A DNA stretch of 38,259 nucleotides from a virus, in the IMG/VR virus record IMGVR_UViG_3300044678_003046, positions 1 to 38,259 of that record; one strand, written 5' to 3'. Made by a program: the position numbers and the translations under genes. Below are positions 6,093-37,504 of this stretch, one piece after another; position 1 is the stretch's first letter; the number at the start of each line of letters is the position of its first letter. Below the pieces are notes generated by a model that saw only the letters and a list, made by a program, of their open reading frames with translations, did not search any database and had not been told where the DNA came from.

Positions 6093-6538
6093 CCCAGCCG
6101 TTGGCGTTTTTCGTCTTTCAAAAGCACAGCGTATTTATGCCGCTTAAATACGTGTACGGTGAGTGCTTTACCCTAATAGAGAAATACGACAAGGTAGCGC
6201 CGTTGCATTGCCTCAAGGCAGATATTTGTCCTGCAAATGTCGGTTGTATGGATATTTTGGCTAAGAGAATTAACTACCTCTTCACCTACGTAGTACCGGA
6301 AGCGCAATTACTGGTTGCTTACTTTAAGTACAGAGACAAGCCAAATTCAATTAGAGCAGGTGTGTTCGACAGAAATCTAAGCGAACCTAAAGTGATGACA
6401 CTAAACCAGTCTGCGTTCAAAAAGTTTCAGCGAGAAGGCTTGACGTTCACTTGGGTTCCTACGATGGAATACCTGACGTTAAGTCGTTCGACGACCTTGA
6501 TTCCCGTACAGAGCCTGCTACTAAAACCACATGAGTGA
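6089..6538 (+). CDS. hypothetical protein
   Basis: 149 residues, not recognised. ATG 6089 forms an ATGA overlap with the preceding stop; a GTG two codons upstream is also in frame. The protein has three cysteines close together ('LHCLKADICPANVGC', about residues 43-57), which could bind metal, and a beta-rich middle. It ends inside the start of the UvsW gene (8-base overlap), so it is cotranscribed with it. It may mark the border between the lysis block and the replication block. Confidence 0.35.
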   Translation: MTQPLAFFVFQKHSVFMPLKYVYGECFTLIEKYDKVAPLHCLKADICPANVGCMDILAKRINYLFTYVVPEAQLLVAYFKYRDKPNSIRAGVFDRNLSEPKVMTLNQSAFKKFQREGLTFTWVPTMEYLTLSRSTTLIPVQSLLLKPHE

Positions 6539-9500
6539 GGAGTCGTCAGTGACCGCAGACGTACACATCGACGTGTATGGCCCCACTTCCAAGATCAGCG
6601 GACCCTACCCAAAGTCTGCTGTACGTATGGTCACTTCGTATCCAGTAGAGGGTGCGCAGTTTTCCCAGTCATATCGTAAGGGCGTGTGGGATGGACGTAA
6701 GCACCTGTTCCGTCTTACGTCTGAGACGTTTCCCACAGGTCTGCTAAGCTTGGTGAAAGAAGCGTGCGAGCTAGCTGGAGCCAATGTAATCGTTACCGAT
6801 CATCGCACTTCTCCACAGCCCAGGAGTGGATCCTTTGATCTTGTGGGCGTGCGAATGGATGGCAAGTACGCGTACCAACTGGAGGCCGCAAAGAAGGCAG
6901 TTGAAGCCAAGCGTGGTGTCCTTCGCATGGCTACAAACGCAGGTAAGTGTTTGCATCCTGACACTCCAGTGATGCTGTTCGACGGGAGTGTAGCCGCCGC
7001 GAAGAACATTCGCGTGGGCAATCTGTTGATGGGTCCAGATTCGCTTCCGCGCGCCGTTCAGAGTACCTGTACGGGCACCGGGCCTATGTACAGGATTGTA
7101 CCTAATCTAGGTGACCCCTGGATTTGCAACGATGTTCACGTTCTCACACTGCGTGACTCTAGACGTACCGGTAAGCACGCCAACGAAGTTGTAGATATTG
7201 AGCTTCCCGAGTACTTTAAGTTGTCTACGAATCGTCGCAGACTGTTGAAACAGTTCAGCACGGGCGTTAACTATCCGGCTATTCCGGATCCTTCGATTGA
7301 CCCGTATTTCTTGGGTGTGTGGTTTGGAGACGGGCGCAAGGACCTTAAGCAGGGCGTGCAAGTTACCATGATGGATTCAGAGATCGTGGACCTGCTTTCC
7401 GACACCTGCAAGTCTTGGTCGTTGAATCTCATCAAGTATGCATCCGAGTCTTCAGGACGAGCAGATACCTATGCTCTTGTTACTCCTCGTGGGGAGACGA
7501 ATCCTCTACTCACGGAAATGCGTAGGGTGTGCGGAGATGCTTCCACTCTGCCACTGTCTTGTCTTCGCGGAAGTGAGCGTGTGCGCCTACTGTTTCTTGC
7601 AGGCTTGTTGGATACTGACGGCCACTTGGAGGTGAACTCTAAGTGGTTTGAGATCACGCAAGTACGAGCTACTTACGCTGAGGGTATTCGGGATCTTGCT
7701 CGTTCGCTAGGCTTTCGAGTGAATGTGAAGCCGAAGGTCGTGAACGGTGTCACTTACCACAGGCTTCACATTTACGGCGACCTACACAAGATCCCTACGC
7801 GTCTTCCTCGAAAGCAAGCTAAGAAGCGCAAACAACCTTATCGCCTGAACACTGGTTTTCGCGTTGAGCCGCTTGGTGTAGGTGACTACGCGGGGTTCAC
7901 TCTAGATGGAGACGGTAGATTCCTGTTGGGTGATTTCACAGTAACACACAACACCGAGGTGGCGTGCGCAATTACACGCTATCTTGAAATGCCTACTATT
8001 TTCATGGTCACCACCAGGGAACTCCTGCATCAGTCCCGTGCACGCTTCATGAAGCGCTTGGGAGCAACGGAAGAGGAAATTGGAATCGTCGGAGATGGAG
8101 TTTGGAATCCAGGAACCTGGGTTACAATCGCCACCGTTGACACGCTTGAGTCTCGTTTTGAACAACAGTCGTGCCAGGACCTTCTCAAGGGTTGCGAAGT
8201 TCTTTTCGTGGACGAATGTGTGGACGAATACTCTGTGATTTCCACGGAATCTGGGTATTCCTACGCCAAGGATATCAAGGTAGGAGATGTAGTTGTAACT
8301 CATTCCGGAATGAAGCCGGTCACGCGAGTTACCACCCACACAAGAGAGGGCGTCAAACTGCACGCAAGTGATGGGCTCTCTTTGTTGTGCTCTGTGGAGC
8401 ACCCAATAGCCGTTGTTCGTAACGGCAAGCTTACCTATATCTACGCAGATAGCGTTAGTGTTGACGATGTTCTGCTAGAACGCATGTCTCCCTCTAGGCC
8501 CTTGGCTGATTTCAGCCTTTCCGCATATTTGGCAGGCTTGTTTGCTGGTGGTGGACATTGGCACAGCACGAACAAGGTCCGCTTTTCCTACAGGAAAGAC
8601 TTCGAGTTCTGGGAAACAGTAGTGCCCTCTTTGCTTACTAAGGCATATCCAGATTCCTCAACGTGCGTGTCCACAAATGCCCGAGGTGGTCACACACTTA
8701 CCGTTTCCTCAGATGCTTTCCTGTTGGACTTGGCTGCTTTGGGCTTTAGCGTTCGGCAGAACAAGTATAAGCATTTGCCTCTGCATCCTAACATGCGGTC
8801 TTATATTTCTGGGTTGTTCGACGCTAAGGGCTTTGTTGACCTTAAGAGCAATCGTTGTGGTATACAAACCACTTGCTATGCGTTGATGGTTGCCCTACAG
8901 CGATTTTTGCGGGACAATAATATTGCCGCTAGACTGCAAGTCTGCCCTAAGAAGTCACAACAGAATCCTGGATACAGAGTGGTAGTCCCCAGTGTGTCCA
9001 CAACTGAGTTTTCCAGTTTGTGCCCTGGCTTCTTGCCAAGAAAGCAGTTGGCTTCTAAGAGACACGGCAGACTTCCGTCTGTGTTCGATTCAGAGGTGAC
9101 CGCTATCGCCAGTAGTGTAAACGCTCGTCCCGTACTAGTTACGAAAGTTGACACAGGACTGTCCTTGAACACCGTAGAGTTCGAAGTAGAGGAAGACCAT
9201 ACGTTTGTTGCGAATGGACTGCTCACGCATAACTGCCATCATGCAGGTAGTGAAACCTGGTATGATGTTTGTACTGCATGTCCTGCTAACTACAGGTACG
9301 GCCTTAGTGGCACTCCTATGGACCGTACCGATGGCGCTAACTTACGCCTTCTTGCGACAATTGGTCCTGTCATTGTGGACATCCCTAACAAGTTCTTGGT
9401 TGAGAACGGTATCAGCGCTAAAACGTATGTTATCTTCTCGAAGATAACCGCGCCTGTTCTACCCAAGAAACTGGCGTATGCGTCTGCCTACAAACAAGGG

Positions 9501-10049
9501 GTAGTGGACAATCCTAATGCACTCAATCTCATCGTTGAATGGACAAAGGTTTTTCAAGAGGTTGGGTTGAGTACGCTGATTCTGTGTGAGCAGATTGAGC
9601 ATGGCAAAGCAATCGACCAGGCTTTGTGGACAGCTACTGGAGATGTATTCATCCCGCACTTGTTTATCCATGGTGAAGAAGCTACGGAAGTTCGTGCCAA
9701 TGCGCTAAAAGACTTCGGTGAGCGAAAGTTGCCAGTACTAGTGGCAAGTACAATCCTTGATGAAGGCGTGGACGTGCCTACAATTGATGCTCTCATTTTA
9801 GCCGGATCCCGTAAGAGCCGGATCAAGACCATGCAGCGCCTGGGTAGAGGCTTGCGAGGCAGCAAACTAATTGCAGTAGAGTTTGCCAACTTCACCAATG
9901 ATTACCTGCTCAAGCATAGTTTGGAGCGTTGGGAAGACTACAAGAAGGAAGAGTGTTTTCCTCTGATTCAGAGTGGGCCTGATGTAGCACTAGTAAGAAA
10001 GATTTGGACGCAAGATGCTGAAAGTAACGGACCTCCGCCCAGGAGATGA
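6531..10049 (+). CDS. uvsW: UvsW-like SF2 DNA helicase containing two inteins
   Basis: The 1172-residue frame encodes a helicase of about 498 residues once two inteins (140-474 and 563-901) are removed; T4 UvsW is 503. The N-terminus has the UvsW DNA-binding domain with 'WDGR' at 53-56. Spliced motifs are Walker A 'ATNAGK/TEVA', motif Ia 'IATVDTL', motif II 'FVDE/CHHAGS', motif III 'LSGTPMDRTDG' and motif VI 'QRLGRGLRG' with arginine fingers. UvsW unwinds branched DNA and R-loops, and in T4 it moves replication from origin-dependent to recombination-dependent mode. Both inteins interrupt the ATP-binding motifs, so the helicase should be inactive until both splice. RecA, gp46/47, SSB and UvsY-like genes downstream fit the same pathway. 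It overlaps the next gene by 35 bases. Confidence 0.9.
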   Translation: MSEESSVTADVHIDVYGPTSKISGPYPKSAVRMVTSYPVEGAQFSQSYRKGVWDGRKHLFRLTSETFPTGLLSLVKEACELAGANVIVTDHRTSPQPRSGSFDLVGVRMDGKYAYQLEAAKKAVEAKRGVLRMATNAGKCLHPDTPVMLFDGSVAAAKNIRVGNLLMGPDSLPRAVQSTCTGTGPMYRIVPNLGDPWICNDVHVLTLRDSRRTGKHANEVVDIELPEYFKLSTNRRRLLKQFSTGVNYPAIPDPSIDPYFLGVWFGDGRKDLKQGVQVTMMDSEIVDLLSDTCKSWSLNLIKYASESSGRADTYALVTPRGETNPLLTEMRRVCGDASTLPLSCLRGSERVRLLFLAGLLDTDGHLEVNSKWFEITQVRATYAEGIRDLARSLGFRVNVKPKVVNGVTYHRLHIYGDLHKIPTRLPRKQAKKRKQPYRLNTGFRVEPLGVGDYAGFTLDGDGRFLLGDFTVTHNTEVACAITRYLEMPTIFMVTTRELLHQSRARFMKRLGATEEEIGIVGDGVWNPGTWVTIATVDTLESRFEQQSCQDLLKGCEVLFVDECVDEYSVISTESGYSYAKDIKVGDVVVTHSGMKPVTRVTTHTREGVKLHASDGLSLLCSVEHPIAVVRNGKLTYIYADSVSVDDVLLERMSPSRPLADFSLSAYLAGLFAGGGHWHSTNKVRFSYRKDFEFWETVVPSLLTKAYPDSSTCVSTNARGGHTLTVSSDAFLLDLAALGFSVRQNKYKHLPLHPNMRSYISGLFDAKGFVDLKSNRCGIQTTCYALMVALQRFLRDNNIAARLQVCPKKSQQNPGYRVVVPSVSTTEFSSLCPGFLPRKQLASKRHGRLPSVFDSEVTAIASSVNARPVLVTKVDTGLSLNTVEFEVEEDHTFVANGLLTHNCHHAGSETWYDVCTACPANYRYGLSGTPMDRTDGANLRLLATIGPVIVDIPNKFLVENGISAKTYVIFSKITAPVLPKKLAYASAYKQGVVDNPNALNLIVEWTKVFQEVGLSTLILCEQIEHGKAIDQALWTATGDVFIPHLFIHGEEATEVRANALKDFGERKLPVLVASTILDEGVDVPTIDALILAGSRKSRIKTMQRLGRGLRGSKLIAVEFANFTNDYLLKHSLERWEDYKKEECFPLIQSGPDVALVRKIWTQDAESNGPPPRR
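6948..7952 (+). other. intein 1 of UvsW, in Walker A, with LAGLIDADG endonuclease
   Basis: 335 residues, from Cys140 to Asn474 of the helicase frame. It starts 'CLHPDTPVML', a standard N-splicing block, and ends 'FTVTHN' before Thr, giving Cys1, His-Asn at the end and Thr at +1. The extein junction is AGK/TEV, exactly between the Lys and Thr of the P-loop. Two LAGLIDADG-type helices are visible: 'FLGVWFGDG' and 'FLAGLLDTDG'. Each keeps the acidic residue before the final Gly, so the homing endonuclease may be active. An N-D-V-H run near residue 195 may be the splicing block B histidine. Confidence 0.93.
8217..9233 (+). other. intein 2 of UvsW, in the DECH box, with decayed LAGLIDADG domain
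   Basis: 339 residues, from Cys563 to Asn901. It starts 'CVDEYSVIST', carries a block B 'CSVEHP', and ends 'VANGLLTHN' before Cys, so Cys1, His-Asn and a Cys +1 nucleophile are all present. The junction is VDE/CHH, inside motif II, and removing it restores a DECHH box. The two endonuclease helices read 'LAGLFAGGG' and 'ISGLFDAKG': the catalytic acid before the final Gly is Gly in the first and Lys in the second. Splicing looks intact but the homing activity is probably lost, unlike in intein 1. Confidence 0.93.
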
Positions 10050-10431: not shown

Positions 10432-10790
10432 CGCCAATACAATCCGGAGACTGGATTGGTTGGTGGAGAGTATCACACCCCACCAAGCTAGTACTCCGCT
10501 ACATAAAGTACTCCATACCCAATGCATACCGTAATATGGTGAACGGGGTATGGTATGTGCACGAAAAGTATGTAGACAGTATTAGGCAGATAGATGCCTC
10601 AGCCGCAGCTAGTACTGAACAGCCTTCCGACCCCTACGCGGTTCTTCACTTGCTACCCACTGCCCCACCGGCTATTATAAAGGCCGCTTGGCGGGAACTC
10701 GCAAAGATACTGCATCCGGACCACGGGGGGGACTCCGAAGCGTTCATGCGAGCAAAAACAGCGTACGAAACTCTCATGACCAAGAGGTGA
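10422..10790 (+). CDS. J-domain (DnaJ-like) co-chaperone
   Basis: 122 residues in two parts. Residues 1-58 form a small domain with 'GDWIGWW' and 'NGVWYVHEKYVDSI'. Residues 70-121 are a J domain: 'DPYAVLHLLPTAPPAIIKAAW', then the HPD signature at 98-100 within 'LHPDHGGD', then a helix with 'FMRAKTAYETL'. J domains stimulate the ATPase of host DnaK (HSP70). There is no Gly/Phe or zinc region, so this is a minimal type III form. Its place just before the helicase genes recalls phage lambda, where DnaJ/DnaK free the helicase at the origin. A role in helicase loading or replisome assembly is inferred from position only. Confidence 0.85.
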   Translation: MDLTPIQSGDWIGWWRVSHPTKLVLRYIKYSIPNAYRNMVNGVWYVHEKYVDSIRQIDASAAASTEQPSDPYAVLHLLPTAPPAIIKAAWRELAKILHPDHGGDSEAFMRAKTAYETLMTKR

Positions 10791-10792
10791 CT

Positions 10793-11428
10793 GTGGGTGT
10801 AGATATAATCGCCATGGTTCAGGCGCAGCGCCTTGCAACCTTGAACCGCAGCATTGCAGCTACTGAAAACCATGAGCGCAGGGTGGCAAATATCGCCACG
10901 AAAACTAGCGCATTGCTTAATGGAGAGACGGAACTCCACACTGAACACCTGGAAGAGTATTGTGCCCGTTCGGCGTATTACCGTTTATTGGAAGAGTACA
11001 CACGCAAGCCATACCACGGTATGACTGGACAAGCTTTCACTCCAAAGGGCTTGTCGCTTTGGAAGCGTGTTACTTCAGCTCTGAAAGCCTCAGGAGTTGA
11101 CTTGGAGACTTTCTTACGTGCACAGTTTACTTGGTTTCACGAGAAGTTTCGTACAGCACCAAAGCCAGTGCAGTTGACTACTGATGCAGCAGTTGTTCGC
11201 GCTGCATCAGTAAAACCTGTACAGGTGCGAACTTCCAATATAGAGGCGAACATACCTATTGGTGATTTGTTTCGTAGGTGTGAAAAGCAAATGACTGATT
11301 TGATGCGGGCACAAAAGATGTCTAGAGAAGAAGTGTACCGTAATTTAGTTCTTCCCGGTCTAGCTGTATTTCCAGATAAGTTCTTGAACGCAGACCCCTT
11401 GTGGAAGAAAGTCAAGTCTAATGGCTGA
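10793..11428 (+). CDS. hypothetical protein, possible helicase loader
   Basis: 211 residues. GTG 10793 was chosen because AGAGG lies 5 bases upstream; the longer open frame would run deep inside the J-domain gene. The protein is helical and basic, with 'YHGMTGQAFTPKGLSLWKRV', a helix with 'FLRAQFTWFHEKF', and a C-terminal domain 'DLFRRCEKQMTDLMRAQKMS'. No family is recognised. It overlaps the replicative helicase gene by 8 bases and lies directly upstream of it, the usual place for a helicase loader or primosome partner (compare T4 gp59 next to gp32/gp41). That role is a guess from context. Confidence 0.4.
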   Translation: MGVDIIAMVQAQRLATLNRSIAATENHERRVANIATKTSALLNGETELHTEHLEEYCARSAYYRLLEEYTRKPYHGMTGQAFTPKGLSLWKRVTSALKASGVDLETFLRAQFTWFHEKFRTAPKPVQLTTDAAVVRAASVKPVQVRTSNIEANIPIGDLFRRCEKQMTDLMRAQKMSREEVYRNLVLPGLAVFPDKFLNADPLWKKVKSNG

Positions 11429-14374: not shown

Positions 14375-14799
14375 ACCGCATCGTGTTTGTCAAGGACCCA
14401 ACCGTACTTCCTGAGAATGAAAAGCATCACGAAGTAGTAGATTCCCTGGCAAAGGCAAACAAGTTGGTTGTACTACTGTCTCACGGTAACAAGTACAACT
14501 TTCCTGCTGGTTGGATACTGCCTTCGAACGTTAAACTCCTGGAGTACGACTTAGAGATGCCCAGCATAAAAGCTGCAGTTAGTCGTATTCGCACGCTGTT
14601 GCGTGAACATAATGTGGAGGTGCACTCTCGCCACCTTGACGAGCGTGACACTTTACCTATAGTCTTGTCAGGTGCACTCGTAGCTGTGCCTACAGGTACC
14701 GAGCTGTCTTTCCTCAACGGACAAACCCAATACGTACGAACTCGCAAGACCCTAGAGACCCCGACGATAGTTGAACAAACGGAGTGGGACATACTATAA
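14356..14799 (+). CDS. hypothetical protein ending in EWDIL
   Basis: 147 residues. ATG 14356 has TTGGAG 8 bases upstream. No family recognised. The first two thirds look alpha/beta ('NKLVVLLSHGNKYNFPAG', 'SIKAAVSRIRTLLREH'). The C-terminus is a linker rich in T and P followed by '...EQTEWDIL'. The same last five residues end the WGR protein at 36569-36907, so this may be a short docking peptide for a shared phage or host partner. The stop overlaps the start of the AAA+ gene (TAATG). Confidence 0.4.
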   Translation: MADHVLNRIVFVKDPTVLPENEKHHEVVDSLAKANKLVVLLSHGNKYNFPAGWILPSNVKLLEYDLEMPSIKAAVSRIRTLLREHNVEVHSRHLDERDTLPIVLSGALVAVPTGTELSFLNGQTQYVRTRKTLETPTIVEQTEWDIL

Positions 14800-15869
14800 T
14801 GGACATCCACACACAGCTCTCTCATGCTGCTATTTCTGTTGTTCCACACAGAGCTAATAGAGAGACTAAGTCATTCTCCGTAAGAGATACGTTTAAGATT
14901 GATACTGGCGTAAAGATGAGCCAGGGAGAGTCTGTAAAAGACTCGAAGGGAAATACAGTTTACTTAGATATCGCGGTTACTGGCTTTGCAACTCCTGGAG
15001 TTCTGACTCCTAGTTTGAATCCAAACTATGTCTTTCCAAAAGAAGAGCTAGTACAGCTACTTCAGGCAATAACGTCAAGAGACACTACGTATCTAGTTGG
15101 TCAATCAGGAACTGGTAAAACAGCCCTGGTAAACCAAGTAGCAGCTCGCCTGAATTACAACGTAGTTCAAATCAATTTCGACGGCCATCTGTCCCGTAGT
15201 GACTTGCTTGGTGACTGGAAAATAGCAAACGGCAACATGCTGTTCCGTTATGGTTTAGTGCCCCTGGCGTTTACAGAGCCCGGAACCATAGTGCTGTTCG
15301 ACGAGATAGACGCGTGCCCGCCAGAAACTGCTTTCGTTTTACAGAGAGCTGTTAGCGAAGACTTGCGTTTCCTCATGCATGAAACAAACCAGATTTTTGA
15401 ACTTCATCCACAGAATTGCATAGTGGGAACCGCAAACACAACAGGTATGGGAGATGATTCAGGTCTCTACGTAGCGGGTACTAACGTACAGAATTTTTCT
15501 TTCTTGAATAGATGGAAGACAGTAATAGCCATTGACTATATTTCCCCTGCAAGCGAAGTAAAGGTGCTGGAGAGCATGTTCCCCGCTGTACATGTGCAGC
15601 CTTTTATTTCTCCCGTAGTCAAGGTTCTATCTGCTGTGCGAGAAGCGTTCAAGGCAGGCACTGTTTCTGTGCCCCTTACTACTCGCGATGGAATTAATTG
15701 GCTTGAAAAACTTACTCGCGTACCTTTCCCGATGAAGTCGGCTAGGTACAGCTTCCTAGACAAGCTTCCGCCTAGCGACGCTTTGGCTGTCGCCAACCTA
15801 ATTCAGCGCCACTTTAAGCTTCCTGAGAAAGACGACAAGAAGTACTTACTAGGGAGCAAGCGTACATGA
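14799..15869 (+). CDS. MoxR/CobS-type AAA+ ATPase
   Basis: 356 residues. Walker A is 'GQSGTGKT' at 101-108, Walker B is 'VLFDEID' with D168/E169, sensor 1 is 'IVGTANTT', and an arginine-bearing 'FLNRWKTVI' follows. This order, with the GxxGxGKT loop and a pre-sensor 'GLVPLAFTEPGTI', is that of MoxR/CobS ATPases. Such proteins act with a VWA-domain partner to load metals or remodel complexes, and the CobT-like VWA gene lies 835 bases downstream. The ATG overlaps the previous stop by one base. Phage copies are often labelled cobaltochelatase subunits, but there is no cobalamin pathway here, so the target is unknown. Confidence 0.88.
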   Translation: MDIHTQLSHAAISVVPHRANRETKSFSVRDTFKIDTGVKMSQGESVKDSKGNTVYLDIAVTGFATPGVLTPSLNPNYVFPKEELVQLLQAITSRDTTYLVGQSGTGKTALVNQVAARLNYNVVQINFDGHLSRSDLLGDWKIANGNMLFRYGLVPLAFTEPGTIVLFDEIDACPPETAFVLQRAVSEDLRFLMHETNQIFELHPQNCIVGTANTTGMGDDSGLYVAGTNVQNFSFLNRWKTVIAIDYISPASEVKVLESMFPAVHVQPFISPVVKVLSAVREAFKAGTVSVPLTTRDGINWLEKLTRVPFPMKSARYSFLDKLPPSDALAVANLIQRHFKLPEKDDKKYLLGSKRT

Positions 15870-16063: not shown

Positions 16064-16088
16064 ACGCCTCCTTCTTGGGGGCGTTTTT
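16064..16088 (+). terminator. rho-independent terminator after the AAA+ operon
   Basis: An 8-base-pair stem (ACGCCTCC with GGGGGCGT, one G-T pair), a 5-base loop and a run of T follow the small gene's stop codon. It closes the + strand operon. The T run also touches the last codon of the reverse-strand metalloprotease gene; on that strand the hairpin has no T tract, so it works mainly for the + strand. Confidence 0.75.
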
Positions 16089-16668
16089 ATTTCTGGTTAA
16101 GTATACCTACCCTCTGCCATCGCACAAACTCTAAGTCATCCTGCAATATCTGTCTTCCAGACTCCGCAGCGTGCGGAAACATCACAGATCCTGGCCATGA
16201 GTCGTGCGTTAAGCCCAAGCAGTGACCAAGCTCGTGCACCAACACTACGGTAGCGTCTTCCACACTTGTGGCCACGTCTAGGCGTATGCGGCAGTTTATG
16301 ACTTCTCCATCGAATTCCTGCAGGCTGGCAAGACCTTGTAGCTGTACTTCTTCGTTTACGTCCGGTAAGTCTGTCTTTTCGAAGTATATGTCTGCTGGAC
16401 GTTCGGCGTCAAAAACAAAGACATCCGCCCCTACTTGCGTGTTCCAATGCTCCATAGCAATATTCATGTGTAGAAAATCTACAAAGCTTATGGAGCTGTC
16501 TAATGCGATCACTAACGGAAACCTGTTACGATTCCAGTGTACTAATTTTCCGCTGGAATTGTACCATACTCCGTTTGCACGCGGTAACCACACCGTTCTG
16601 GGCGCGCAGCTAACTATGCCTATCAAGACTGTAGCTGCTACCACCACTAACAAGCGTATACTACGCAT
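16087..16668 (-). CDS. metzincin-type zinc metalloprotease, lipoprotein
   Basis: 193 residues on the minus strand. Starting at the ATG at 16668, the N-terminus is a lipoprotein signal with hydrophobic core 'LLVVVAATVLIGIVSC', Cys at 21. The zinc site 'HELGHCLGLTHD' lies at 145-156 (HExxHxxGxxH), and 'SVMFP' at 161-165 is a Met-turn, so the fold is a matrixin-like metzincin. It should be exported, lipid-anchored and able to cut a periplasmic or surface protein. It stands alone between the AAA+ and VWA genes, against the direction of its neighbours, like a moron carried for its own effect on the host. The upstream start at 16734 is less likely because it would put a long leader before the signal peptide. 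Confidence 0.82.
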   Translation of the reverse strand: MRSIRLLVVVAATVLIGIVSCAPRTVWLPRANGVWYNSSGKLVHWNRNRFPLVIALDSSISFVDFLHMNIAMEHWNTQVGADVFVFDAERPADIYFEKTDLPDVNEEVQLQGLASLQEFDGEVINCRIRLDVATSVEDATVVLVHELGHCLGLTHDSWPGSVMFPHAAESGRQILQDDLEFVRWQRVGILNQK

Positions 16669-16674
16669 GCAATA

Positions 16675-16683
16675 AGTATAGCA
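16675..16683 (-). promoter_or_regulatory. candidate extended -10 promoter for the metalloprotease
   Basis: On the minus strand the sequence reads TGC-TATACT six bases before the ATG, an extended -10 element. Transcription would start at or next to the ATG at 16668, so the mRNA may be leaderless; no ribosome site is visible. The matching -35 is weak. A second TATACT on the plus strand at 16657-16662 faces it as an inverted repeat and could serve the VWA gene. Confidence 0.4.
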
Positions 16684-16703
16684 GTTTATTTTAGGAAGAA
16701 AAT

Positions 16704-18392
16704 ATGAGAAGTAATGTTCGGTTAGCCGAATCATCTATCGAGCGCACTGCGCGCCTTCTCTCCCTGCAATTCGGTATCCGCGTTGTGTGGAAATCGGGAG
16801 AGTGCAAGACTGACGGCAATACCATCTACTTGCCTACGCTCCCTAGTGACGCTCCTAGCGAGCTTCTGGCTGCCGTGCACGGGTTCTTGGACCATGAAAC
16901 CGCCCACGTATTATTCACTGATTTCAAGGCAATAAAAGAGCGCACACCAACTCCCACTGCAACACAATTTCATTGCATCAATGTAATAGAAGACAATCGG
17001 GTGGAGGCTGCGGTGTGTCGCTTGTTTCCCGGCTCCGTCACAAACCTAGCGGCTAGCAACGACTGGATGGTGCCAAAAATACGCCAAAATTGGCAAAACA
17101 TTAATCAATTTATGCGGGCTTGTACTGCTTACGGGAATTTTGTTGCCTATGGCAAATACACAGATTTCTGGATGCACACAGTAGACGAGCAGACAAAGCT
17201 GTTGGTTGATAAATGCGTAGATGCAGTAGGCCCTGTAGCTAACATAGTATCTACCGATTTAGCAATTGAGGCAGGGTTTCGCATGTTCGAAGTGCTAAAA
17301 GAGTACGCAGAAGAGGAAGAGGAAGACAGAAAAAAGAGAGAGAAGCAGAAATCCAAACAAACAGCAACCATAGAAGCGGGAGGTACGCCTTCTTCTTCGC
17401 AACCAGTATCCCAAGACCAGTTAGGTGAACTACTAGGACAGGAAGCAGCTGCTCTTGTATCCAAGAGCGGAAAAAACGCAACAGGATATAAGCACGATGC
17501 AGACAGTGACAAAACGTACATAGTGTTCTCTACAGCAGATGACACTGTAAAACCTTTTCCTGACGTTGCAGTTGCTTTGAATGGACAAAAACTTCAACGG
17601 ATAAGAGACACGCATAAAGCCGTAACAAATGTACTGCGAACTAGGTTAGTTAACTCTTTGCGTGCACAAGCAAGACGGCGTTGGGTAGGCAGCAAAGAAG
17701 AAGGCAAAGTTGATTCTAGAAAACTATACAGGTCTGTATTAGGTACCGACAACGCAGTGTACAAGCAGCTAGCTAACAGGCTACACATAGACACAGCTGT
17801 GTGCCTGGCTATCGACCATTCCGGGTCCATGGTTGGCAGGAAGCTGGACTTAGCCGGAACCGCAGCTATAGTGCTGGGCGATGTGTTGGACTCTTTGCGT
17901 ATTCCATTCGCTGCGTACGCATACTCCACAGACCAACCTACCAGCATTCCAGCTGACTGTGTGCCCTACGCACGTTGGAATAGTCTGTGGATTAGATACT
18001 ACAGAGATTTTAATGAGCCCTGGGAAAAAGGAGCCTTGCGTCTATCGGAGGCGTCTACTAACATCAGAAGTAACACTCTAGACGCAGAATCTGTGAAGCA
18101 CGGTATTCGTCGATTGTTGTTACGCAAAGAGAAACGCAAGATACTTTTTGTGTTCAATGATGGTATGCCCTATCCTGGGCACGGACATGTGGGCCGATGT
18201 CAGCAACACTTGCTGGACGTAGTAAGCGCTGCTTCTGAGTACGGCATTGAGATCGTCGCTTTTGGTATACAGAGTACCGACGTTAGACAGTACTATCCTA
18301 ACAGCGTAGTAATCCAACGATTGGAAGACTTTACCGAAGAACCGTTAAAAGTGCTTGACCGCTTACTTAGAAAAGGAATAAGACTTAAGTGA
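16704..18392 (+). CDS. CobT-like VWA protein with N-terminal HExxH domain
   Basis: 562 residues with AGGAAG 5 bases upstream of the ATG. The N-terminal domain has 'LDHETAHVLFTD' (HExxH at 64-68) and then 'NVIEDNRVE', as in putative metallopeptidase-like domains attached to VWA proteins. A charged E/K/Q linker spans about 205-250. The VWA domain begins near 365 with a full MIDAS 'DHSGSM' (D371, S373, S375). This partner type works with MoxR/CobS ATPases, one of which lies upstream. The two genes are separated by a terminator and the reversed protease gene, so this one needs its own promoter. The molecular target is not known. Confidence 0.85.
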   Translation: MRSNVRLAESSIERTARLLSLQFGIRVVWKSGECKTDGNTIYLPTLPSDAPSELLAAVHGFLDHETAHVLFTDFKAIKERTPTPTATQFHCINVIEDNRVEAAVCRLFPGSVTNLAASNDWMVPKIRQNWQNINQFMRACTAYGNFVAYGKYTDFWMHTVDEQTKLLVDKCVDAVGPVANIVSTDLAIEAGFRMFEVLKEYAEEEEEDRKKREKQKSKQTATIEAGGTPSSSQPVSQDQLGELLGQEAAALVSKSGKNATGYKHDADSDKTYIVFSTADDTVKPFPDVAVALNGQKLQRIRDTHKAVTNVLRTRLVNSLRAQARRRWVGSKEEGKVDSRKLYRSVLGTDNAVYKQLANRLHIDTAVCLAIDHSGSMVGRKLDLAGTAAIVLGDVLDSLRIPFAAYAYSTDQPTSIPADCVPYARWNSLWIRYYRDFNEPWEKGALRLSEASTNIRSNTLDAESVKHGIRRLLLRKEKRKILFVFNDGMPYPGHGHVGRCQQHLLDVVSAASEYGIEIVAFGIQSTDVRQYYPNSVVIQRLEDFTEEPLKVLDRLLRKGIRLK

Positions 18393-18853
18393 CCGTACTT
18401 AATCCTTGCGCGCACATTGCCGTTACTGGGCGTGAACTAGGCAATAGTTACGGTGCCGGTAACGGTGACGGTTACGGTAACGGTAACCGTTACGGTTACG
18501 GTAACGGTTACGGTTACGGTAACGGTCACGGCAAAGGTGAAGGTTACGGTAACGGTCACGGTGACGGTAACGGTGACGGTGACGGTGACGGTAACGGTTA
18601 CGGTTACGGTACCGGTAACGGTGACGGTGACGGTGACGGTTACGGTGACGGTTACGGTAACGGTGACGGTGACGGTAACGGTGAAGCAATATTGGAGGAG
18701 ATGGGAATCCCCAATACTTTACATCACTTGTTTCTCCCACTCTCCAACGAAAGCTTAGAGCTAGCTAACATACTACTCAACTGTAATACCTCTCTTGAGT
18801 ATGAGAGTATCCTAGGTATCCTGGAACTTAGGAGAGATGTATGTCTACGCTAG
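18389..18853 (+). CDS. glycine-dipeptide repeat protein, copy 1
   Basis: 154 residues, starting at GTG 18389 with a GTGA overlap with the VWA gene. Residues 22-99 are a near-perfect Gly-X array in which X is N, D, Y or H, coded by GGTNAC. A 55-residue helical C-terminal domain follows ('AILEEMGIPNTLHHLF', 'LELANILLNCNT', 'ESILGILELR'). No known family is recognised. The paralogue starts 12 bases before its stop and shares the C-terminal domain almost unchanged, so the pair arose by a recent tandem duplication. There is no signal peptide. Gly/Asn/Asp/Tyr-rich strings of this kind are expected to be disordered and might bind Ca2+ or self-associate; this is a guess. Confidence 0.7.
   Translation: MTVLNPCAHIAVTGRELGNSYGAGNGDGYGNGNRYGYGNGYGYGNGHGKGEGYGNGHGDGNGDGDGDGNGYGYGTGNGDGDGDGYGDGYGNGDGDGNGEAILEEMGIPNTLHHLFLPLSNESLELANILLNCNTSLEYESILGILELRRDVCLR
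18452..18685 (+). repeat. GGTNAC hexanucleotide array, copy 1 (39 units)
   Basis: 39 units of 6 bases in frame with the gene. By hand count, 34 end in NAC: AAC 11, GAC 11, TAC 10, CAC 2. The exceptions are GCC, AAA, ACC and two GAA. One Gly codon is CGT and one is GGC; all others are GGT. Every NAC unit carries the palindromic core GTNAC (apart from the CGT unit, which still has it), so the array reads the same core on both strands. Confidence 0.95.
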
Positions 18854-19281
18854 AAGGTAACGGTGACGGTAACGGTTACGGTAACGGTAACGGTCACGGT
18901 GACGGTAACGGTAACGGTGACGGTGGTAACGGTTACGGTGACGGTAACGGTCACGGTGACGGTGAAGGTGACGGTGACGGTAACGGTCACGGTGACGGTG
19001 ACGGTGACGGTGACGGTGACGGTGACGGTAACGGTCACGGTGACGGTGACGGTAAAGGTGACGGTGACGTTAACGGTTACGGTAACGGTAACGGTCACGG
19101 TGACGGTGACGGTGAAGCAATATTGGAGGAGATGGGAATCCCCAATGCTCTAAAGCACTTGTTTCTCCCACTCTCCAACGAAACCTTAGAGTTAGCTAAC
19201 ATACTACTCAACTGTAATACTGCTCTTGAGTATGAGAGTATCCTAGGTATCTTAGAGCTTAGAAACGACATTTATACGTAA
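18841..19281 (+). CDS. glycine-dipeptide repeat protein, copy 2
   Basis: 146 residues, start ATG 18841 with AGGAG six bases upstream, overlapping copy 1 by 13 bases. A 5-residue start ('MSTLE') leads straight into the Gly-X array (residues 6-92), then a C-terminal domain that matches copy 1 at almost every residue apart from short changes such as T to A and H to K. Copy 2 lacks the 21-residue leader of copy 1. Array order and composition differ between copies (more Asp and His here, fewer Tyr) while the domain stays the same, so the arrays have changed faster than the domains. It ends 13 bases before the MazG-like gene. Confidence 0.7.
   Translation: MSTLEGNGDGNGYGNGNGHGDGNGNGDGGNGYGDGNGHGDGEGDGDGNGHGDGDGDGDGDGDGNGHGDGDGKGDGDVNGYGNGNGHGDGDGEAILEEMGIPNALKHLFLPLSNETLELANILLNCNTALEYESILGILELRNDIYT
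18856..19116 (+). repeat. GGTNAC hexanucleotide array, copy 2 (43 units)
   Basis: 43 units plus one extra GGT triplet, which makes a Gly-Gly step near 18927. By hand count: GAC 19, AAC 13, CAC 5, TAC 3, GAA 2, AAA 1. One GGT is changed to GTT (Val). A six-unit run of GGTGAC lies at 18991-19026. The unit order N-Y-N-N-H-D occurs near both ends of the array, a sign of internal copying. Confidence 0.95.
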
Positions 19282-19294
19282 GGGAGACTAATAT

Positions 19295-19624
19295 ATGGAC
19301 TTCACAGACTATCAAGACGCCGTTAGTACGACAGCAGTTTATCCCAACGTAGGATCAAACTTCGTGTATCCTGCACTTGGGCTTTGTGGTGAAGCGGGAG
19401 AAGTCGCAGAGAAAATCAAAAAGGTGTTGCGTGACAAAGCCGGAGTATTAGACGAAGAAACGAGAGCGGCGCTCAAAAAGGAGCTAGGCGACTGCTTATG
19501 GTACGTTGCCCGTCTTAGCTCAGAACTAGGATTTTCTATGGCTGAGGTTGCTGAAGGAAATATAGAAAAGTTGCGCTCTCGCAAGGCTCGTGGCACACTG
19601 CAGGGCAGTGGCGACAACCGTTGA
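19295..19624 (+). CDS. MazG-like NTP pyrophosphohydrolase
   Basis: 109 residues, start ATG after GGGAG. The all-alpha MazG fold is shown by 'GLCGEAGEVAEKIKK' (E-x-x-E-x3-K) at about 29-43 and 'KKELGDCLWYVARL' (E-x-x-D) at about 64-77, the metal-binding residues of the family. Single-domain MazG-like proteins hydrolyse NTPs or dNTPs to NMPs, and in phages they are thought to tune the nucleotide pool or ppGpp signalling. Its partner enzymes for dNTP supply (dNMP kinase, ThyX) lie in the last 5 kb. Confidence 0.85.
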   Translation: MDFTDYQDAVSTTAVYPNVGSNFVYPALGLCGEAGEVAEKIKKVLRDKAGVLDEETRAALKKELGDCLWYVARLSSELGFSMAEVAEGNIEKLRSRKARGTLQGSGDNR

Positions 19625-26677: not shown

Positions 26678-27141
26678 TCACTTACCACGATTGCCCGCAG
26701 TGCGGGGCGCGCAAGATCCGCAGCACTGTGCGGCTCTGCGAGGTGTGTGAGACGTGCGAGGAGTACGAGTCGAAGATCGCTGAACTAGAGCGCGAGCGCG
26801 ACGAGGCGGTGCGCGAGCGCGACGAGCTTCGGCTCGCGTGCGATGGGTGCGCGGACTCAGAGCACAAGACCGGACGTGCTCACTATGACGACTGCCCCGT
26901 GGGCGTCGCGGTGCGCGAGCGCGACGAGGCGCGGGCCGAGGTCGAGATGCTCCGAGGCGTCGGATGCCGCGAGACAAAAGCGGATGAACCCGAGAGTGGC
27001 CCGTGCGGCGTGTGCCTCAAGTGCGCCGAGGAACGCGGTGCGGAATGGGCGCTCGATAGCGTCGGATGGAGCCGCAAGGACGACCGTCGTTCTATCGCAC
27101 GGCGCGTCTGTGCCGATGTGAGGAAGGGACGAAAGCGATGA
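26674..27141 (+). CDS. zinc-finger coiled-coil protein in GC-rich insert
   Basis: 155 residues, ATG 26674 overlapping the Imm stop (ATGA). It contains several Cys pairs: 'CPQCGARK' (7-10 region), 'CEVCETCEE', 'CDGCADSE', 'CGVCLKC', with coiled-coil runs of E and R between them ('ERERDEAVRERDELRLAC', repeated as 'VRERDEARAEVEML'). GC is about 67 % in 26821-26880 and 77 % in 26881-26940, so it came from a high-GC source. Some zinc-ribbon plus coiled-coil proteins bind nucleic acid; no function is known here. Confidence 0.6.
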   Translation: MITYHDCPQCGARKIRSTVRLCEVCETCEEYESKIAELERERDEAVRERDELRLACDGCADSEHKTGRAHYDDCPVGVAVRERDEARAEVEMLRGVGCRETKADEPESGPCGVCLKCAEERGAEWALDSVGWSRKDDRRSIARRVCADVRKGRKR

Positions 27142-27182
27142 TCCAACGACCTTGCGAAGGACACGCTGGAGGAGGTGCCTGA

Positions 27183-27482
27183 ATGAAGAAGTCTAAGAGT
27201 ACACAAAAGCGGTCTATGTATAAAGAAGAAAAACTTTTTGTAGCTCGCGTCAACCTAAGTGGACTATACCATAGCAAGCCCATCGCAGTCTTCTATCAAG
27301 AAGATAACTGGTATGCTTCTAAAGACGGAAACGTCGTAGTCGATTTAAATGCCCCCAATAACAAACCTAGTTGCACAGACTTTGTCTCCGCCGTAAAAAC
27401 TGAGGTGGAAAACTGGATCGCAGGGGCTTCAGCAGCAATGCGTTGCGTTCATGAGTGGTCTAGGATGGTGGACGACCGCTAG
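27183..27482 (+). CDS. hypothetical protein
   Basis: 99 residues. ATG follows GGAGGAGG by 7 bases, a strong ribosome site. Basic N-terminus ('KKSKSTQKRS'), then 'ARVNLSGLYHSKPIAVFYQ' and 'NWYASKDGNVVVDLNAPNN'. Its base composition is back to normal (48 % over 27241-27300), so it marks the right end of the GC-rich insert. No family recognised. Confidence 0.45.
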   Translation: MKKSKSTQKRSMYKEEKLFVARVNLSGLYHSKPIAVFYQEDNWYASKDGNVVVDLNAPNNKPSCTDFVSAVKTEVENWIAGASAAMRCVHEWSRMVDDR

Positions 27483-27531
27483 AAATACGCTACGCTAGCC
27501 TTAATAAGCGAGTTAACCTATGGTGGATGTA

Positions 27532-28674
27532 ATGATTGATGAATTCGTTGTGTTCTCTGACCATCATGCGCATACTTTTCCCTTTGGGGCTAAGGAAGAA
27601 GCCTACGAAAACTATTTTGTTAACTCACGTCTAAAAGCTTCGTATGATGTAGTAGCAGAGATACAGAAGTACGTAGCATCCAATAACATCAAGAAAGTAT
27701 TCTTCTGTGGCGACCTGTTTCACACACGAGAAGCAGTCCCAACTGTCGCACTAAACTTAATGCACAGGGCCATTTCTTCTTTGGCCTCTGTAGCGCGAGT
27801 TTGGATGATGCCAGGGAACCACGACTACGCAGACAGAGACGGCAAAATTCACAGTCTAGAAGTGTTTAAACGAATTGACGGGTGCAGAGTAATAGACTGG
27901 AATACTCCATCAGACACTCCTGGCTTGGCTCCTCGTACCTTGCGTATGTACGGATTACGCAAGGACACAGTAACCTACTCTTTTGTACCGTACACCGACG
28001 ACAGACAGCAAGCTGCAGAGTGCATCGCCACTGCAGCAAATTCTACCCTTCCAAATGAGCCCCATATCCTATTCGCGCATTTAGGCATTCAAGGCGCAAA
28101 GGTTGGCTCAGATTACGTACTCGTCAGTGACAACGACGTCAGTGTCAGTGACATCCCTTGGCAGAAGTTTGCTGGTTGCTTTTTTGGGCACTATCACGAA
28201 CATCAGCAGCTATTTAAGAATGGTTGGTACGTTGGCGCTACTCACCAGCATAACTGGGGAGACGCCAACACCAAGCGCGGATTTCTTCATGTGAAGGTCT
28301 ATCTAGACCATGTTGATTTCGATTTTGTCGAAACTAAAAGTGCTCCTAAGTTCATCCTGTCAAAGGAAGGGTCACAGACTAAGCCAAGGCCAATGGATTT
28401 CGTGAGGATCTTAACTAGCAAGAAGCACACTCCTGCGGAAATAGACTCTCTGCGCCAATCGTCCGGGGCTGAAAACTGTGAAGTAATATACATGCCTCCT
28501 GAGGTGCAGGCTGCTACACTTGAACTTTCCGAGGAGAATCTGTCTCCAGTTGCAATGGTTCCTGCTTGGGTTAAGGCAAACGAAGCTTGGGTTAAATCCC
28601 ATCTTCCTGGAATTGAGAAATCTGACCTTGTAACATATGGCAAGACTCTTTTAGTCGTTGCAAATGCAGAATGA
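27532..28674 (+). CDS. SbcD/Mre11-type nuclease (gp47-like)
   Basis: 380 residues from ATG 27532, which has GGTGGA 5 bases upstream; ATG 27520 is also possible. Metallophosphoesterase motifs in order: 'SDHHAH', 'CGDLFH', 'PGNHDY', 'FAHLG', 'FGHYHEH'. This is the nuclease half of the SbcCD (T4 gp46/47) complex, which resects double-strand ends for recombination and origin-independent replication. The ATPase half is 300 bases downstream, with two small genes between. Confidence 0.92.
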   Translation: MIDEFVVFSDHHAHTFPFGAKEEAYENYFVNSRLKASYDVVAEIQKYVASNNIKKVFFCGDLFHTREAVPTVALNLMHRAISSLASVARVWMMPGNHDYADRDGKIHSLEVFKRIDGCRVIDWNTPSDTPGLAPRTLRMYGLRKDTVTYSFVPYTDDRQQAAECIATAANSTLPNEPHILFAHLGIQGAKVGSDYVLVSDNDVSVSDIPWQKFAGCFFGHYHEHQQLFKNGWYVGATHQHNWGDANTKRGFLHVKVYLDHVDFDFVETKSAPKFILSKEGSQTKPRPMDFVRILTSKKHTPAEIDSLRQSSGAENCEVIYMPPEVQAATLELSEENLSPVAMVPAWVKANEAWVKSHLPGIEKSDLVTYGKTLLVVANAE

Positions 28675-28753
28675 GCTAGACGTATTACTACTGCTTGTAT
28701 TAGCTTTACTAGTAATTCAGCTAGGTATGTGCTGCGGTGCGGCCTACCTGTGA
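28664..28753 (+). CDS. very small membrane peptide (29 residues)
   Basis: ATG 28664 overlaps the end of the nuclease gene by 11 bases and is followed by 29 codons. The peptide is nearly all hydrophobic, with core 'LLLLVLALLVIQLGMCCG'. It would form one membrane helix with two adjacent Cys at the end. No ribosome site is clear, so translation by coupling is the most likely case. It could also be a chance open frame. Confidence 0.35.
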   Translation: MQNELDVLLLLVLALLVIQLGMCCGAAYL

Positions 28754-28766
28754 TACTGATGTTGAC

Positions 28767-29003
28767 GTGAAAAACTCAATAAAAGTTGTTGTTGACCGCA
28801 ATGTTGGGCACGTAGTTACACTTACTGCCACTGTTGAGATTTCCGTGGCAAATGGAAAAGCAGACTTAGCGGATCTGCTCAGTAAGACGATTGTTGAGCA
28901 AGTACGAAACAAAGTCGCAAACTACACAGATGGTACTTACGTAGTACGTATGCAATGTGTTATTTTGGAGCAAGCAAATGCAACTGACAAACCTGAAGAT
29001 TGA
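28767..29003 (+). CDS. small hypothetical protein
   Basis: 78 residues from GTG 28767; the frame is open further up to GTG 28737. It is beta/alpha, with 'SIKVVVDRNVGHVVTLTATV' and 'ADLLSKTIVEQVRNKVANYT', and no family recognised. The last 26 bases overlap the SbcC gene. Its place between SbcD and SbcC suggests it is cotranslated with them. Confidence 0.4.
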   Translation: MKNSIKVVVDRNVGHVVTLTATVEISVANGKADLADLLSKTIVEQVRNKVANYTDGTYVVRMQCVILEQANATDKPED

Positions 29004-30897: not shown

Positions 30898-30904
30898 TAC
30901 AAAG

Positions 30905-31252
30905 ATGAAAGTTGAACTGATTGACGCTAGAGGAGGAGACTACATCACTGCGCAAGGACAAGTCTTGCGTAAGTTGATAAAACAGCGTATACAAGATTTA
31001 GAGACCGCGTACAAGCGGCTAGTAGACCGAATGAACAACGAGATACCTGATAAGTCAGACGCTGTTACTTTGATGATTGCGCTTTCCGACAATGTTGCAC
31101 TGAACGAACGTGCCTTGTTTTTTAAAGCTTGTGTAGAGCGCGCGGCCTATTTTGACCGAGAAATCCGAGAGCTTAATACTCTGGGACAGTCCTTCAGGGA
31201 GGATGCTGTCTACCAAATTACACTAAAAGACGCTATCAGGTACGGTCTTTAA
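30905..31252 (+). CDS. hypothetical helical protein
   Basis: 115 residues from ATG 30905; the longer frame would lie inside the SbcC gene. AGGAG sits 11 bases upstream. The protein is helical ('LIKQRIQDLETAYKRLVDRM', 'ERALFFKACVERAAYFDREI') and charged. No family is known. It closes the SbcDC gene group. Confidence 0.4.
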   Translation: MKVELIDARGGDYITAQGQVLRKLIKQRIQDLETAYKRLVDRMNNEIPDKSDAVTLMIALSDNVALNERALFFKACVERAAYFDREIRELNTLGQSFREDAVYQITLKDAIRYGL

Positions 31253-31279
31253 ACCAGAGTAATATATGAGGCCATGAAT

Positions 31280-33739: not shown

Positions 33740-33800
33740 GCGCTACCTCGTAGCTGAACTTGTAATACCGCAGCATTTACATTGTCAGCTGGTAATAGGT

Positions 33801-33829
33801 AATGTAACTTACTCACGCTTATTTGTCAA
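33801..33829 (-). promoter_or_regulatory. sigma70-type promoter for the fibre-like gene
   Basis: Read on the minus strand, TTGACA (33829-33824), a 17-base spacer and TACATT (33806-33801) make a strong consensus promoter, with a start near 33794 and a 54-base leader to the GTG at 33739. Spacing and -35 match the consensus exactly, and the -10 matches at four of six positions. Confidence 0.65.
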
Positions 33830-33877
33830 CGTAGGCATACGTCCTTGTGGTCTACACAAAAACTGCTAAGAAATGGA

Positions 33878-34687: not shown

Positions 34688-34695
34688 GGCACAAA

Positions 34696-35893: not shown

Positions 35894-35899
35894 GCTGGC

Positions 35900-35927
35900 T
35901 TGCAGGGAACAAGTTCAGTGCTATAGA
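35900..35927 (+). promoter_or_regulatory. weak candidate promoter before the HNH gene
   Basis: An extended -10 of the form TGC-TATAGA (35919-35927) with TTGCAG 16 bases upstream lies just before the HNH endonuclease gene. The -35 matches at only three bases. A free-standing homing endonuclease may carry its own promoter, but this site is a suggestion. Confidence 0.25.
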
Positions 35928-35937
35928 TATTTCTACC

Positions 35938-36567: not shown

Positions 36568-36568
36568 T

Positions 36569-37497: not shown

Positions 37498-37504
37498 GAT
37501 ATAC

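Follow-up and report, generated by a model that had tools for sequence, protein, structure and literature searches.

Two overlapping genes encode Gly-X repeat proteins

The window, i.e., the whole stretch of DNA analysed here (38,259 nucleotides; IMG/VR record IMGVR_UViG_3300044678_003046), comes from a virus of bacteria, and the locus under study consists of two adjoining plus-strand genes for Gly-X repeat proteins. Gene 1 (18389..18853), recognized from its ORF and codon list, encodes 154 amino acids, has homologues in five other virus records, and begins with a GTG that overlaps the stop codon of its CobT-like upstream neighbour. Gene 2 (18841..19281) encodes 146 amino acids, and an AGGAG can be seen by eye upstream of its ATG; the stop of gene 1 and the start of gene 2 overlap by 13 nt (18841..18853, plus strand). 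Array 1 (18452..18685, plus strand) contains 39 hexamers, of which 33 are strictly GGTNAC, and array 2 (18856..19116, plus strand) contains 43, of which 39 are strict; both were listed codon by codon and detected by Tandem Repeats Finder (scores up to 295 and 325, respectively). An extra GGT codon in array 2 (18922..18924, plus strand) shifts the hexamer phase by 3 nt and leaves the frame intact. Behind each array lies a version of the same C-terminal domain (18680..18850 in gene 1, beginning GEAILEEMGIP; 19111..19278 in gene 2; both plus strand).

An earlier sequence-only reading of this DNA had reported two adjacent genes with a shared C-terminal domain and 39 + 43 = 82 units, all of which the full codon listing bears out, with the addition that the genes overlap. 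Its hand count of NAC in 74 of 82 units (N = G 30, A 24, T 13, C 7) was matched exactly; this total includes CGTTAC and GTTAAC, and strict GGTNAC units number 33 + 39 = 72. The interval it gave, 18389-19281, does contain the arrays but is not filled by them: it also holds the leaders (21 residues in gene 1, 5 in gene 2), the 13-nt gene overlap, and in each gene a C-terminal domain some 55 residues long. The units lie in frame within predicted genes and vary by indels of 3 and 6 nt, as in a coding minisatellite. Reading the arrays as Val-Thr would make N silent, and such frames are also open (both arrays on the plus strand, array 2 on the minus strand); we rejected them as the coding frame because the shared domain uses the Gly-X frame, with a pN/pS of 0.22.

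The upstream neighbour is a CobT/VWA-like protein (16704..18392, plus strand; PF11775, 2.2e-18; phrog_1576, 1.4e-64) and the downstream neighbour a MazG-like pyrophosphatase (19295..19624, plus strand; phrog_229, 1.3e-42). Farther downstream, a phage RecA (25405..26442, plus strand; PF00154, 3.9e-130) might drive recombination of the arrays. Scanning the window for Rfam families and tRNAs returned no hits.

A conserved domain behind a predicted disordered chain

AF2 predicted four helices for the gene 2 domain (pLDDT 87.7, pTM 0.66), and the array is predicted to be disordered (pLDDT about 35-40 in a single-sequence model). The low pN/pS across 9 paralogues shows that the domain is under purifying selection. 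Searches of the two proteins against Pfam, PHROGs, NCBIfam, and PADLOC returned low-complexity matches or none; a PDB sequence search and Foldseek against PDB and BFVD returned nothing at E 0.001, and the domain had no match among INPHARED phages. A search with synthetic array DNA also returned nothing, probably owing to the low-complexity filter of BLAST. The Pfam family TrAA12 (PF22807) was considered and rejected: gene 2 (34.7 bits) passes the cut-off of 30.9 and gene 1 (29.4 bits) does not, and the best stretches lie only at profile positions 384-437 of 463, on the repeat, with the main domain unmatched. Within the open-access literature surveyed, mostly the openings of abstracts, we found no description of this class of Gly-X array proteins.

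Silent uniformity and the GTNAC motif

Within the arrays, replacement diversity far exceeds silent diversity (pN 0.216 versus pS 0.041 in array 1; 0.178 versus 0 in array 2). As the sequence-only reading had stated, synonymous codons are in use elsewhere: 15 other ORFs of the window contain GGA 154, GGC 140, GGG 52, and GGT 154 times, with NAC:NAT ratios of 200:120 for Asn, 240:156 for Asp, 148:67 for Tyr, and 106:80 for His, and array codon uniformity is thus not a phage-wide habit. Nor did a homologue search uncover arrays of mixed synonymous codons beside this phage's domain, the pattern which that reading had named as evidence that only the peptide is conserved; across nine paralogues, 339 of 352 Gly codons were GGT and 308 of 315 codons were NAC. 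This uniformity agrees with the low silent divergence of the paralogues' domain. Fourfold-degenerate sites of the nine domains differ at 9.4%. In the arrays, pooled diversity reaches 68% at the X first base but only 7.1% at the third base of Gly codons and 4.3% at that of X codons. Since silent sites of the arrays are about as variable as those of the domain, they lend no support to a conserved GTNAC.

That motif is nevertheless present in nearly every unit, and five of the six hexamer bases are almost invariant, which would suit a DNA element in which more than 70 palindromes bind or titrate a restriction enzyme, a methylase, or a partition or replication protein. The window holds 210 GTNAC sites, compared with 164.5 +/- 11.6 when it is shuffled as a whole. 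Outside the arrays, however, there are 136 sites, where base and dinucleotide frequencies predict 146-157; the excess is therefore the arrays themselves, with no enrichment beyond them. In other viral contigs the same Gly-X peptide is encoded mostly by GGCNAC, GGCNAT, GGANAC, GGANAT, or GGGNAC, none of which contains GTNAC, and this contradicts DNA-level selection on the palindrome. All 80 uniform, N-variable arrays in an unbiased sample are of such GTNAC-less types, and C is rare at N among them (His in 30 of 2561 units); in array 2 itself, the 3-nt insertion breaks the phase of the sites. An origin-like, centromere-like, or decoy site fares no better, as silent sites show no extra conservation and homologous genes of another domain family use other hexamers. 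Taken together, we consider a GTNAC DNA element extremely improbable.

Gly-X arrays in other viral contigs

Coding repeats usually change at silent sites while the peptide stays constant. Among sampled runs at least 16 units long, the viral ones were silent-uniform and N-variable in 97 of 119 cases, compared with 7 of 123 from prokaryote genomes; 95 of these 123 varied the ordinary way round. In the 80 uniform viral arrays, the replacement base was 48% minor versus 0.8% and 0.3% at the silent sites, and X was mainly Tyr (1042), Asp (694), Asn (436), and Ser (246). The rarity of His, even though Tyr to His is a transition, points to amino-acid choice at X. Another domain family has 19 members; the 17 that were tabulated show five silent types, each uniform at 97-100% throughout its array, and X is mostly Y/D/S or Y/D/N; homologous genes thus differ in the silent bases that run through their entire arrays. 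Judged by the longest repeat, unit order exceeded shuffled expectation in 20 of 59 arrays, and judged by 4-unit words in 28 of 59; array 1 was not among them. Many stand-alone ORFs consist of an array plus short ends only.

The Gly codon was the commonest of its contig in 41 of 61 arrays, and the X third base was the majority base in 47 of 61. Codon bias as the only cause of the uniform codons was rejected, given the mixed codons of other ORFs and the use of GGC in 53 of 61 arrays versus 23.5 expected from the codon usage of their own contigs. This GGC excess is not accounted for by youth of the arrays alone.

Variation concentrated at amino-acid-changing bases is also a feature of diversity-generating retroelement targets. 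A rival explanation is a targeted mutator that alters the first base of X alone, with comparable effect. The contrast between replacement and silent bases in the 80 arrays, and the recurrence of the X-base pattern on different hexamers within one domain family, would fit such a mutator. Its base spectrum should then follow mutation type, but the observed one tracks amino acids (His rare, Ser common); moreover, reverse transcriptase was found in 1 of 53 records and in neither the window record nor two relatives (G000, G001, and G003, possibly fragments), and the two substitutions between near-identical arrays described below fall outside N. The phage arrays also differ from retroelement targets in that variation within a unit falls mainly on one codon's first base, and with the cognate reverse transcriptase not found, we rejected that assignment. 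Biased repair, a second cause proposed by the sequence-only reading, is unsupported, given the missing reverse transcriptase in the window record and two relatives and the two substitutions outside N, and we regard a targeted mutator as very unlikely.

Array differences among relatives and proposed turnover

The gene 1 domain differs at 10-11 of 171 bases from near-identical phages, and near-identical phages differ by one unit in array 1 and in gene copy number (2 versus 3). Between relatives whose flanks are 99.9-100% identical, the arrays differ by no more than a single 6-nt indel and 2 substitutions, both off N, a very small sample. An all-pairs array comparison was dominated by neighbouring arrays in the flanks; its pooled counts were left unused, and of it the pair L197/L374 alone is cited. 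In the relative L004, gene 1 combines an array like that of the first gene of L003 (1 difference in 288) with a domain identical to that of L003's second gene (0 in 171). Gene 1 of L004 is thus a chimera of two neighbouring copies, showing that gene copies recombine. Repeat assemblies may contain errors.

These arrays are probably best explained as young coding minisatellites for disordered Gly-X proteins with selection acting on X, i.e., the third cause offered by the sequence-only reading (peptide selection at X combined with recent expansion), which fits best of the three. The tandem pair belongs to a wider family of phage genes for small proteins in which a (Gly-X)n stretch, rich in Asp and predicted to be disordered, precedes a small helical domain. 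Single units, longer blocks, and whole gene copies may be gained, lost, and recombined, through recombination or slippage, faster than point mutations accumulate, leaving silent positions still those of the founder hexamer. The selected peptide would be Gly alternating with a mix of few residues (here D, N, Y, and H), such that turnover retains a set of unit types distinguished solely by the base that opens the X codon. In a toy model whose outcome depends on settings, one setting with fast turnover and selection for a mix gave a minor fraction of 0.54 at N and 0.003/0.001 at silent sites; the same turnover without selection lowered N to 0.06, selection with tenfold mutation raised silent sites to 0.19/0.05, and neutral low turnover left N at 0.52 from the starting state. 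A counterpoint to fast turnover, which we infer, is that arrays of near-identical relatives differ by little; the unit-order result above, with array 1 outside it, also counts against the explanation.

The same loss of N diversity in the model argues against slippage-prone hexamers drifting as a neutral satellite in dispensable small genes with X unselected. Low complexity, variable length, and the many ORFs that are little more than array would be expected of such a satellite, but the frame survives indels of 3 and 6 nt, X is confined to few residues in many arrays, and bacterial arrays show the opposite pattern, and we consider this explanation unlikely.

A possible link to annealing genes

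ERF was found in 14 of 50 array contigs versus 3 of 48 controls (p 0.0065), and 11 of 18 annealase genes lay within 5 kb of an array (4.2 expected), whereas RecT over the cut-off showed no enrichment (4 of 50 versus 4 of 48). Neither ERF nor RecT had a match in the window or in four related records, and a role in recombination is therefore only a hint. Arrays might serve as shared short homologies for gene exchange at module borders in annealase-carrying phages, their uniformity being kept to match other phages. The ERF excess, the clustering of annealase genes, and the use of GGC above codon-usage prediction are in line with this proposal, but five or more hexamer types coexist, even inside one domain family, RecT is not enriched, and this phage and its four relatives carry neither gene, making it improbable.

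More tentatively than the minisatellite explanation itself, we suggest that many phages may carry an undescribed class of disordered proteins built from Gly-X chains, frequently encoded close to genes for ssDNA annealing and replication. In these, X would be under lasting diversifying selection, each array would be founded anew, time after time, from one hexamer, and the chain would serve phage DNA replication and recombination as a tunable sticker-spacer scaffold or decoy. The missing annealing protein in this phage lowers the weight of the scaffold or decoy reading, as it does for shared homology. For the protein encoded here, we propose only with low confidence that it works in replication or recombination of the phage as a disordered chain of the sticker-and-spacer kind.

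Comparison with known repeat systems and implications

Fibroin-like or FUS-like low-complexity chains also mix Gly with polar residues, Tyr, and Ser; their likeness to the phage chains is one of composition. Bacterial poly-(Gly-Asp) repeats in our prokaryote-genome sample are likewise Gly-X dipeptide arrays of similar length, but with mostly fixed X and mixed silent sites, the reverse of the phage pattern. Borg extrachromosomal elements are described as carrying recent, fast-changing coding tandem repeats that are rare in the host and commonly disordered, with perfect or nearly perfect units rarely common to arrays or genomes (PMC9879509). The phage arrays resemble them as probably young coding tandem repeats with predicted disordered segments in a mobile element, but differ in varying at one replacement base over fixed silent bases and in sharing a Gly-X grammar across many viral contigs. 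A Borg-type perfect repeat was accordingly rejected, as the units are not identical in nucleotides and all four bases occur at N.

Overall, our analysis takes a misleading GTNAC-site reading out of the annotation of such loci. The viral arrays reverse the usual pattern of coding repeats in many contigs and with several silent-base choices, and they offer a clean natural system in which array turnover, selection on the peptide, and mutational bias can be told apart. Should the link to annealing hold, they would also point to a disordered part of certain phage recombination modules that has gone unstudied.

The two array genes and their setting

Two adjacent genes encode Gly-X repeat proteins (X being the variable residue after Gly), each an in-frame array of GGTNAC hexamers followed by a common C-terminal domain. 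Gene 1 (18389-18853) carries 39 hexamers, 33 of them strictly GGTNAC, and gene 2 (18841-19281) carries 43, of which 39 are strict. A codon listing of both genes confirmed these unit numbers from the sequence-only reading, and also its count of NAC in 74 of 82 units (CGTTAC and GTTAAC included), with G 30, A 24, T 13 and C 7 at N, the first base of the X codon. An extra GGT in array 2 (18922-18924) shifts the six-base phase while keeping the reading frame. The window's other genes lack this uniform codon habit, as that reading had held (15 other ORFs compared).

The GTG start of gene 1 overlaps the TGA of a CobT-like gene, and gene 2 starts 13 nt ahead of the gene 1 end. The neighbours are this CobT-like gene (16704-18392, CobT/VWA-like) upstream and a MazG-like gene, with RecA 6 kb off; a CobS-like ATPase (phrog_249; 14784-15869) also lies upstream. 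Besides RecA, the window, a 38,259-base IMG/VR virus record, encodes SbcC/SbcD-like proteins, DNA polymerase A, a DnaB-like helicase and an intein-bearing helicase, and the helicase ORF at 6531-10049 has Hint and LAGLIDADG homing-endonuclease domains inserted in it, apparently as two inteins. The protein at 31274-32542 matches VWA and a MopE motif below threshold, and the one at 16087-16734 is a matrixin-like protease; the style of the VWA/MopE-motif protein recalls Myxococcota, which we take to be a possible host of this phage. The C-terminal domain was predicted as four helices (pLDDT 87.7, pTM 0.66, with only 9 close sequences) and had no PDB or BFVD match at E 0.001, while the array was predicted to be disordered (pLDDT ~35-40).

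A viral class not tied to GTNAC

The sequence-only reading had offered selection at the DNA level on the palindrome GTNAC as one cause of the one-base variation, to be checked by counting the motif across the phage genome. The whole window holds 210 sites (164.5 +/- 11.6 expected), but no excess extends beyond the arrays, outside which 136 were observed against 146-157 expected. Among viral contigs, six consecutive GGTNAC units occur in at least 119 stretches, and an open scan for GGNNAY x8, with both silent bases (the Gly and X third bases) free, returned at least 120 viral stretches, yielding 125 distinct arrays among the matches listed. Of these listed arrays, 87 were silent-uniform (neither silent site with more than 10% minor base) and 38 silent-mixed; 80 of the 87 were also N-variable (X first-base minor share at least 25%). 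These 80 listed arrays fall into five hexamer types (GGCNAC 61, GGCNAT 10, GGGNAC 3, GGANAT 3, GGANAC 3), have mean minor shares of 0.8% at the Gly third base, 0.3% at the X third base and 48% at the X first base, and carry X residues Y (1042), D (694), N (436) and S (246), with H only 30. GTNAC is absent from all five types and is not enriched beyond the window arrays, and the DNA-site interpretation therefore fails.

Homologous domains of another C-terminal family also span array types. That family has 19 members by BLAST, of which 17 were tabulated (L164 and L072 left out) and the GGTNAC members came from the GGTNAC scan. By third bases it includes five types (GGTNAC, GGCNAC, GGCNAT, GGANAT and GGTNAT), each 97-100% uniform among counted units of the tabulated members, with domain identity across types of up to 55% (82/150, L217 vs L105). 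GGC served as the Gly codon in 53 of 61 arrays, where 23.5 would be expected; the other 19 of the 80 had too few Gly codons and were dropped. The arrays of L136 and L140 are written with GGC, which makes up just 12-14% of Gly codons there. Four viral contigs (L208, L242, L184, L206) start or end within an array, perhaps reflecting assembly breaks at sequence common to phages. The Gly-X array class is widespread in viruses and not tied to GTNAC, and our searches of an open-access library turned up no description of it.

When the same 16-unit pattern was scanned in both sets, 97 of 119 viral runs (119 of 120 listed stretches entered) were silent-uniform and N-variable and 3 were ordinary (X fixed, silent sites mixed), whereas the listed prokaryote-genome runs were 7 of 123 and 95 of 123, respectively (Fisher 1e-36 among the matches listed). 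Much of the prokaryote sample came from a handful of Polyangia and Myxococcales assemblies, which supplied many arrays whose X is fixed and whose silent codons are mixed (L259-L373); a hand-grouped tally of the 65 genomes listed gave 43 ordinary, 15 other and 7 reversed (silent-uniform, N-variable). Three reversed cases have residue mixes as in viral arrays (Y/D/N in L263 and L287, Y/D in L300), and the remaining four are His- and Tyr-rich. L300 may be a prophage, since its leader resembles by eye those of some viral arrays; some IMG/VR contigs may be misassigned.

Multi-copy genes in related records

The 57-residue domain, used to scan viral contigs, was found at 6 loci, which lie on 5 contigs. 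Two related records, G001 (L443, L444) and G002 (L445), align with the window at 98.9-99.8% across 6-12 kb pieces, and the array locus holds 3 copies in G001 and 2 in the window and G002. A third, G003 (L447:1-11296, L442), is identical to window 26964-38259 across 11,296 bases and extends ~20 kb beyond the window's right end, where 7 further array genes lie in two clusters, one of the genes being truncated by the contig end. Judging from these copy counts, the array genes of this phage type seem to form a dispersed multi-copy family, variable in number. L442 also encodes (10615-11403, minus strand) a protein in which a zinc-finger-like motif is recognisable by eye; the C-terminus of this protein, SILAILELRKE, is weakly similar to the array-gene domain (E 0.05). 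A second multi-copy group (L045, L060, L109, L122) has tandem sets of 3-7 Gly-X genes, the arrays ending in short TISTRTRRRS-like tails.

Compared with L003/L004 (the G001/G002 loci), the window has 1 flank difference in 1000 bases and 0 in 1019; a single 6-nt unit separates the versions of array 1 (plus one substitution in L003) and one substitution those of array 2, and the domains differ at 10-11 sites in gene 1 and 2 in gene 2. No L003/L004 domain is identical to that of window gene 1. The L004 gene 1 array differs from that of the L003 first gene at 1 of 288 bases, and its domain shows 0/171 differences from the L003 second gene against 5 from the first. L004 gene 1 is a chimera of neighbouring copies, the outcome expected from recombination with copy loss.

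Silent and replacement variation

Nine distinct genes were compared (window 2, L003 1, G003 6), near-identical orthologues and partial copies being excluded. Domain 4-fold sites differed at 63 of 667 compared (9.4%), and upstream of the domain pooled diversity was 7.1% at the Gly third base (GGT 339, GGC 11, GGG 2), 4.3% at the X third base (NAC 308, NAT 7) and 68% at the X first base. Domain diversity is pairwise between genes and array diversity is over pooled units, so the measures are not identical; set against each other, they give no sign of special freezing of array silent sites in the nine genes. Domain pN/pS was 0.22, and within arrays pN exceeded pS (0.216 vs 0.041; 0.178 vs 0).

Annealing genes near arrays

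At 200 loci, 340 ORFs reach 150 aa or more and lie no farther than 3.5 kb from an array; 140 of these were scanned, and they matched 183 PHROG families. Among the 25 listed, the largest were Erf-, RecT- and Bet-like annealing proteins, followed by helicases/helicase loaders, DNA methyltransferases and RecE. No family exceeds 5 of the 140 members, and a single member can match several families. ERF occurred in 14 of 50 array contigs against 3 of 48 controls (uncorrected p 0.0065), two of the control records with ERF perhaps being near-identical isolates; RecT by itself was not enriched above the cut-off (4/50 vs 4/48). ERF or RecT was found in 18 array contigs vs 7 controls (uncorrected p 0.02), the controls being somewhat shorter (at least 15 kb vs at least 20 kb). 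The annealing gene lay within 5 kb of the array in 11 of 18 cases (14 if contigs are circular) against 4.2 expected. The window phage does not fit this association, because neither ERF nor RecT had a match in the window or G001-G004.

Origin of the array variation

Internal repetition was tested in 59 arrays (the two window arrays plus uniform arrays 25 units or longer) and exceeded shuffles in 20 by longest repeat and in 28 by 4-unit words; array 1 looked random, and array 2 showed only a word deficit. Between L197 and L374, whose flanks are identical for ~700 bases to either side, the arrays are 27 units apart in length, a gap that may also stem from misassembly. A toy model reproduced the pattern in one of three settings when blocks turned over fast under selection for the X mix (N 0.54, silent sites 0.003/0.001), while selection with tenfold mutation gave silent sites of 0.19/0.05, neutral fast turnover lost N diversity (0.06-0.10), and neutral slow turnover kept N at 0.52, inherited from the starting state. 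The model shows turnover plus selection to be sufficient and is not proof of it. Retroelement mutagenesis was also considered as the cause of the N variation and is unlikely.

Any function of the Gly-X array proteins is one that we infer. Overall, the pattern is real and unusual, and among the options raised from sequence, peptide selection combined with recent expansion is the best reading: the arrays would be a young, recombining coding minisatellite, whose variation is shaped by selection on the peptide.
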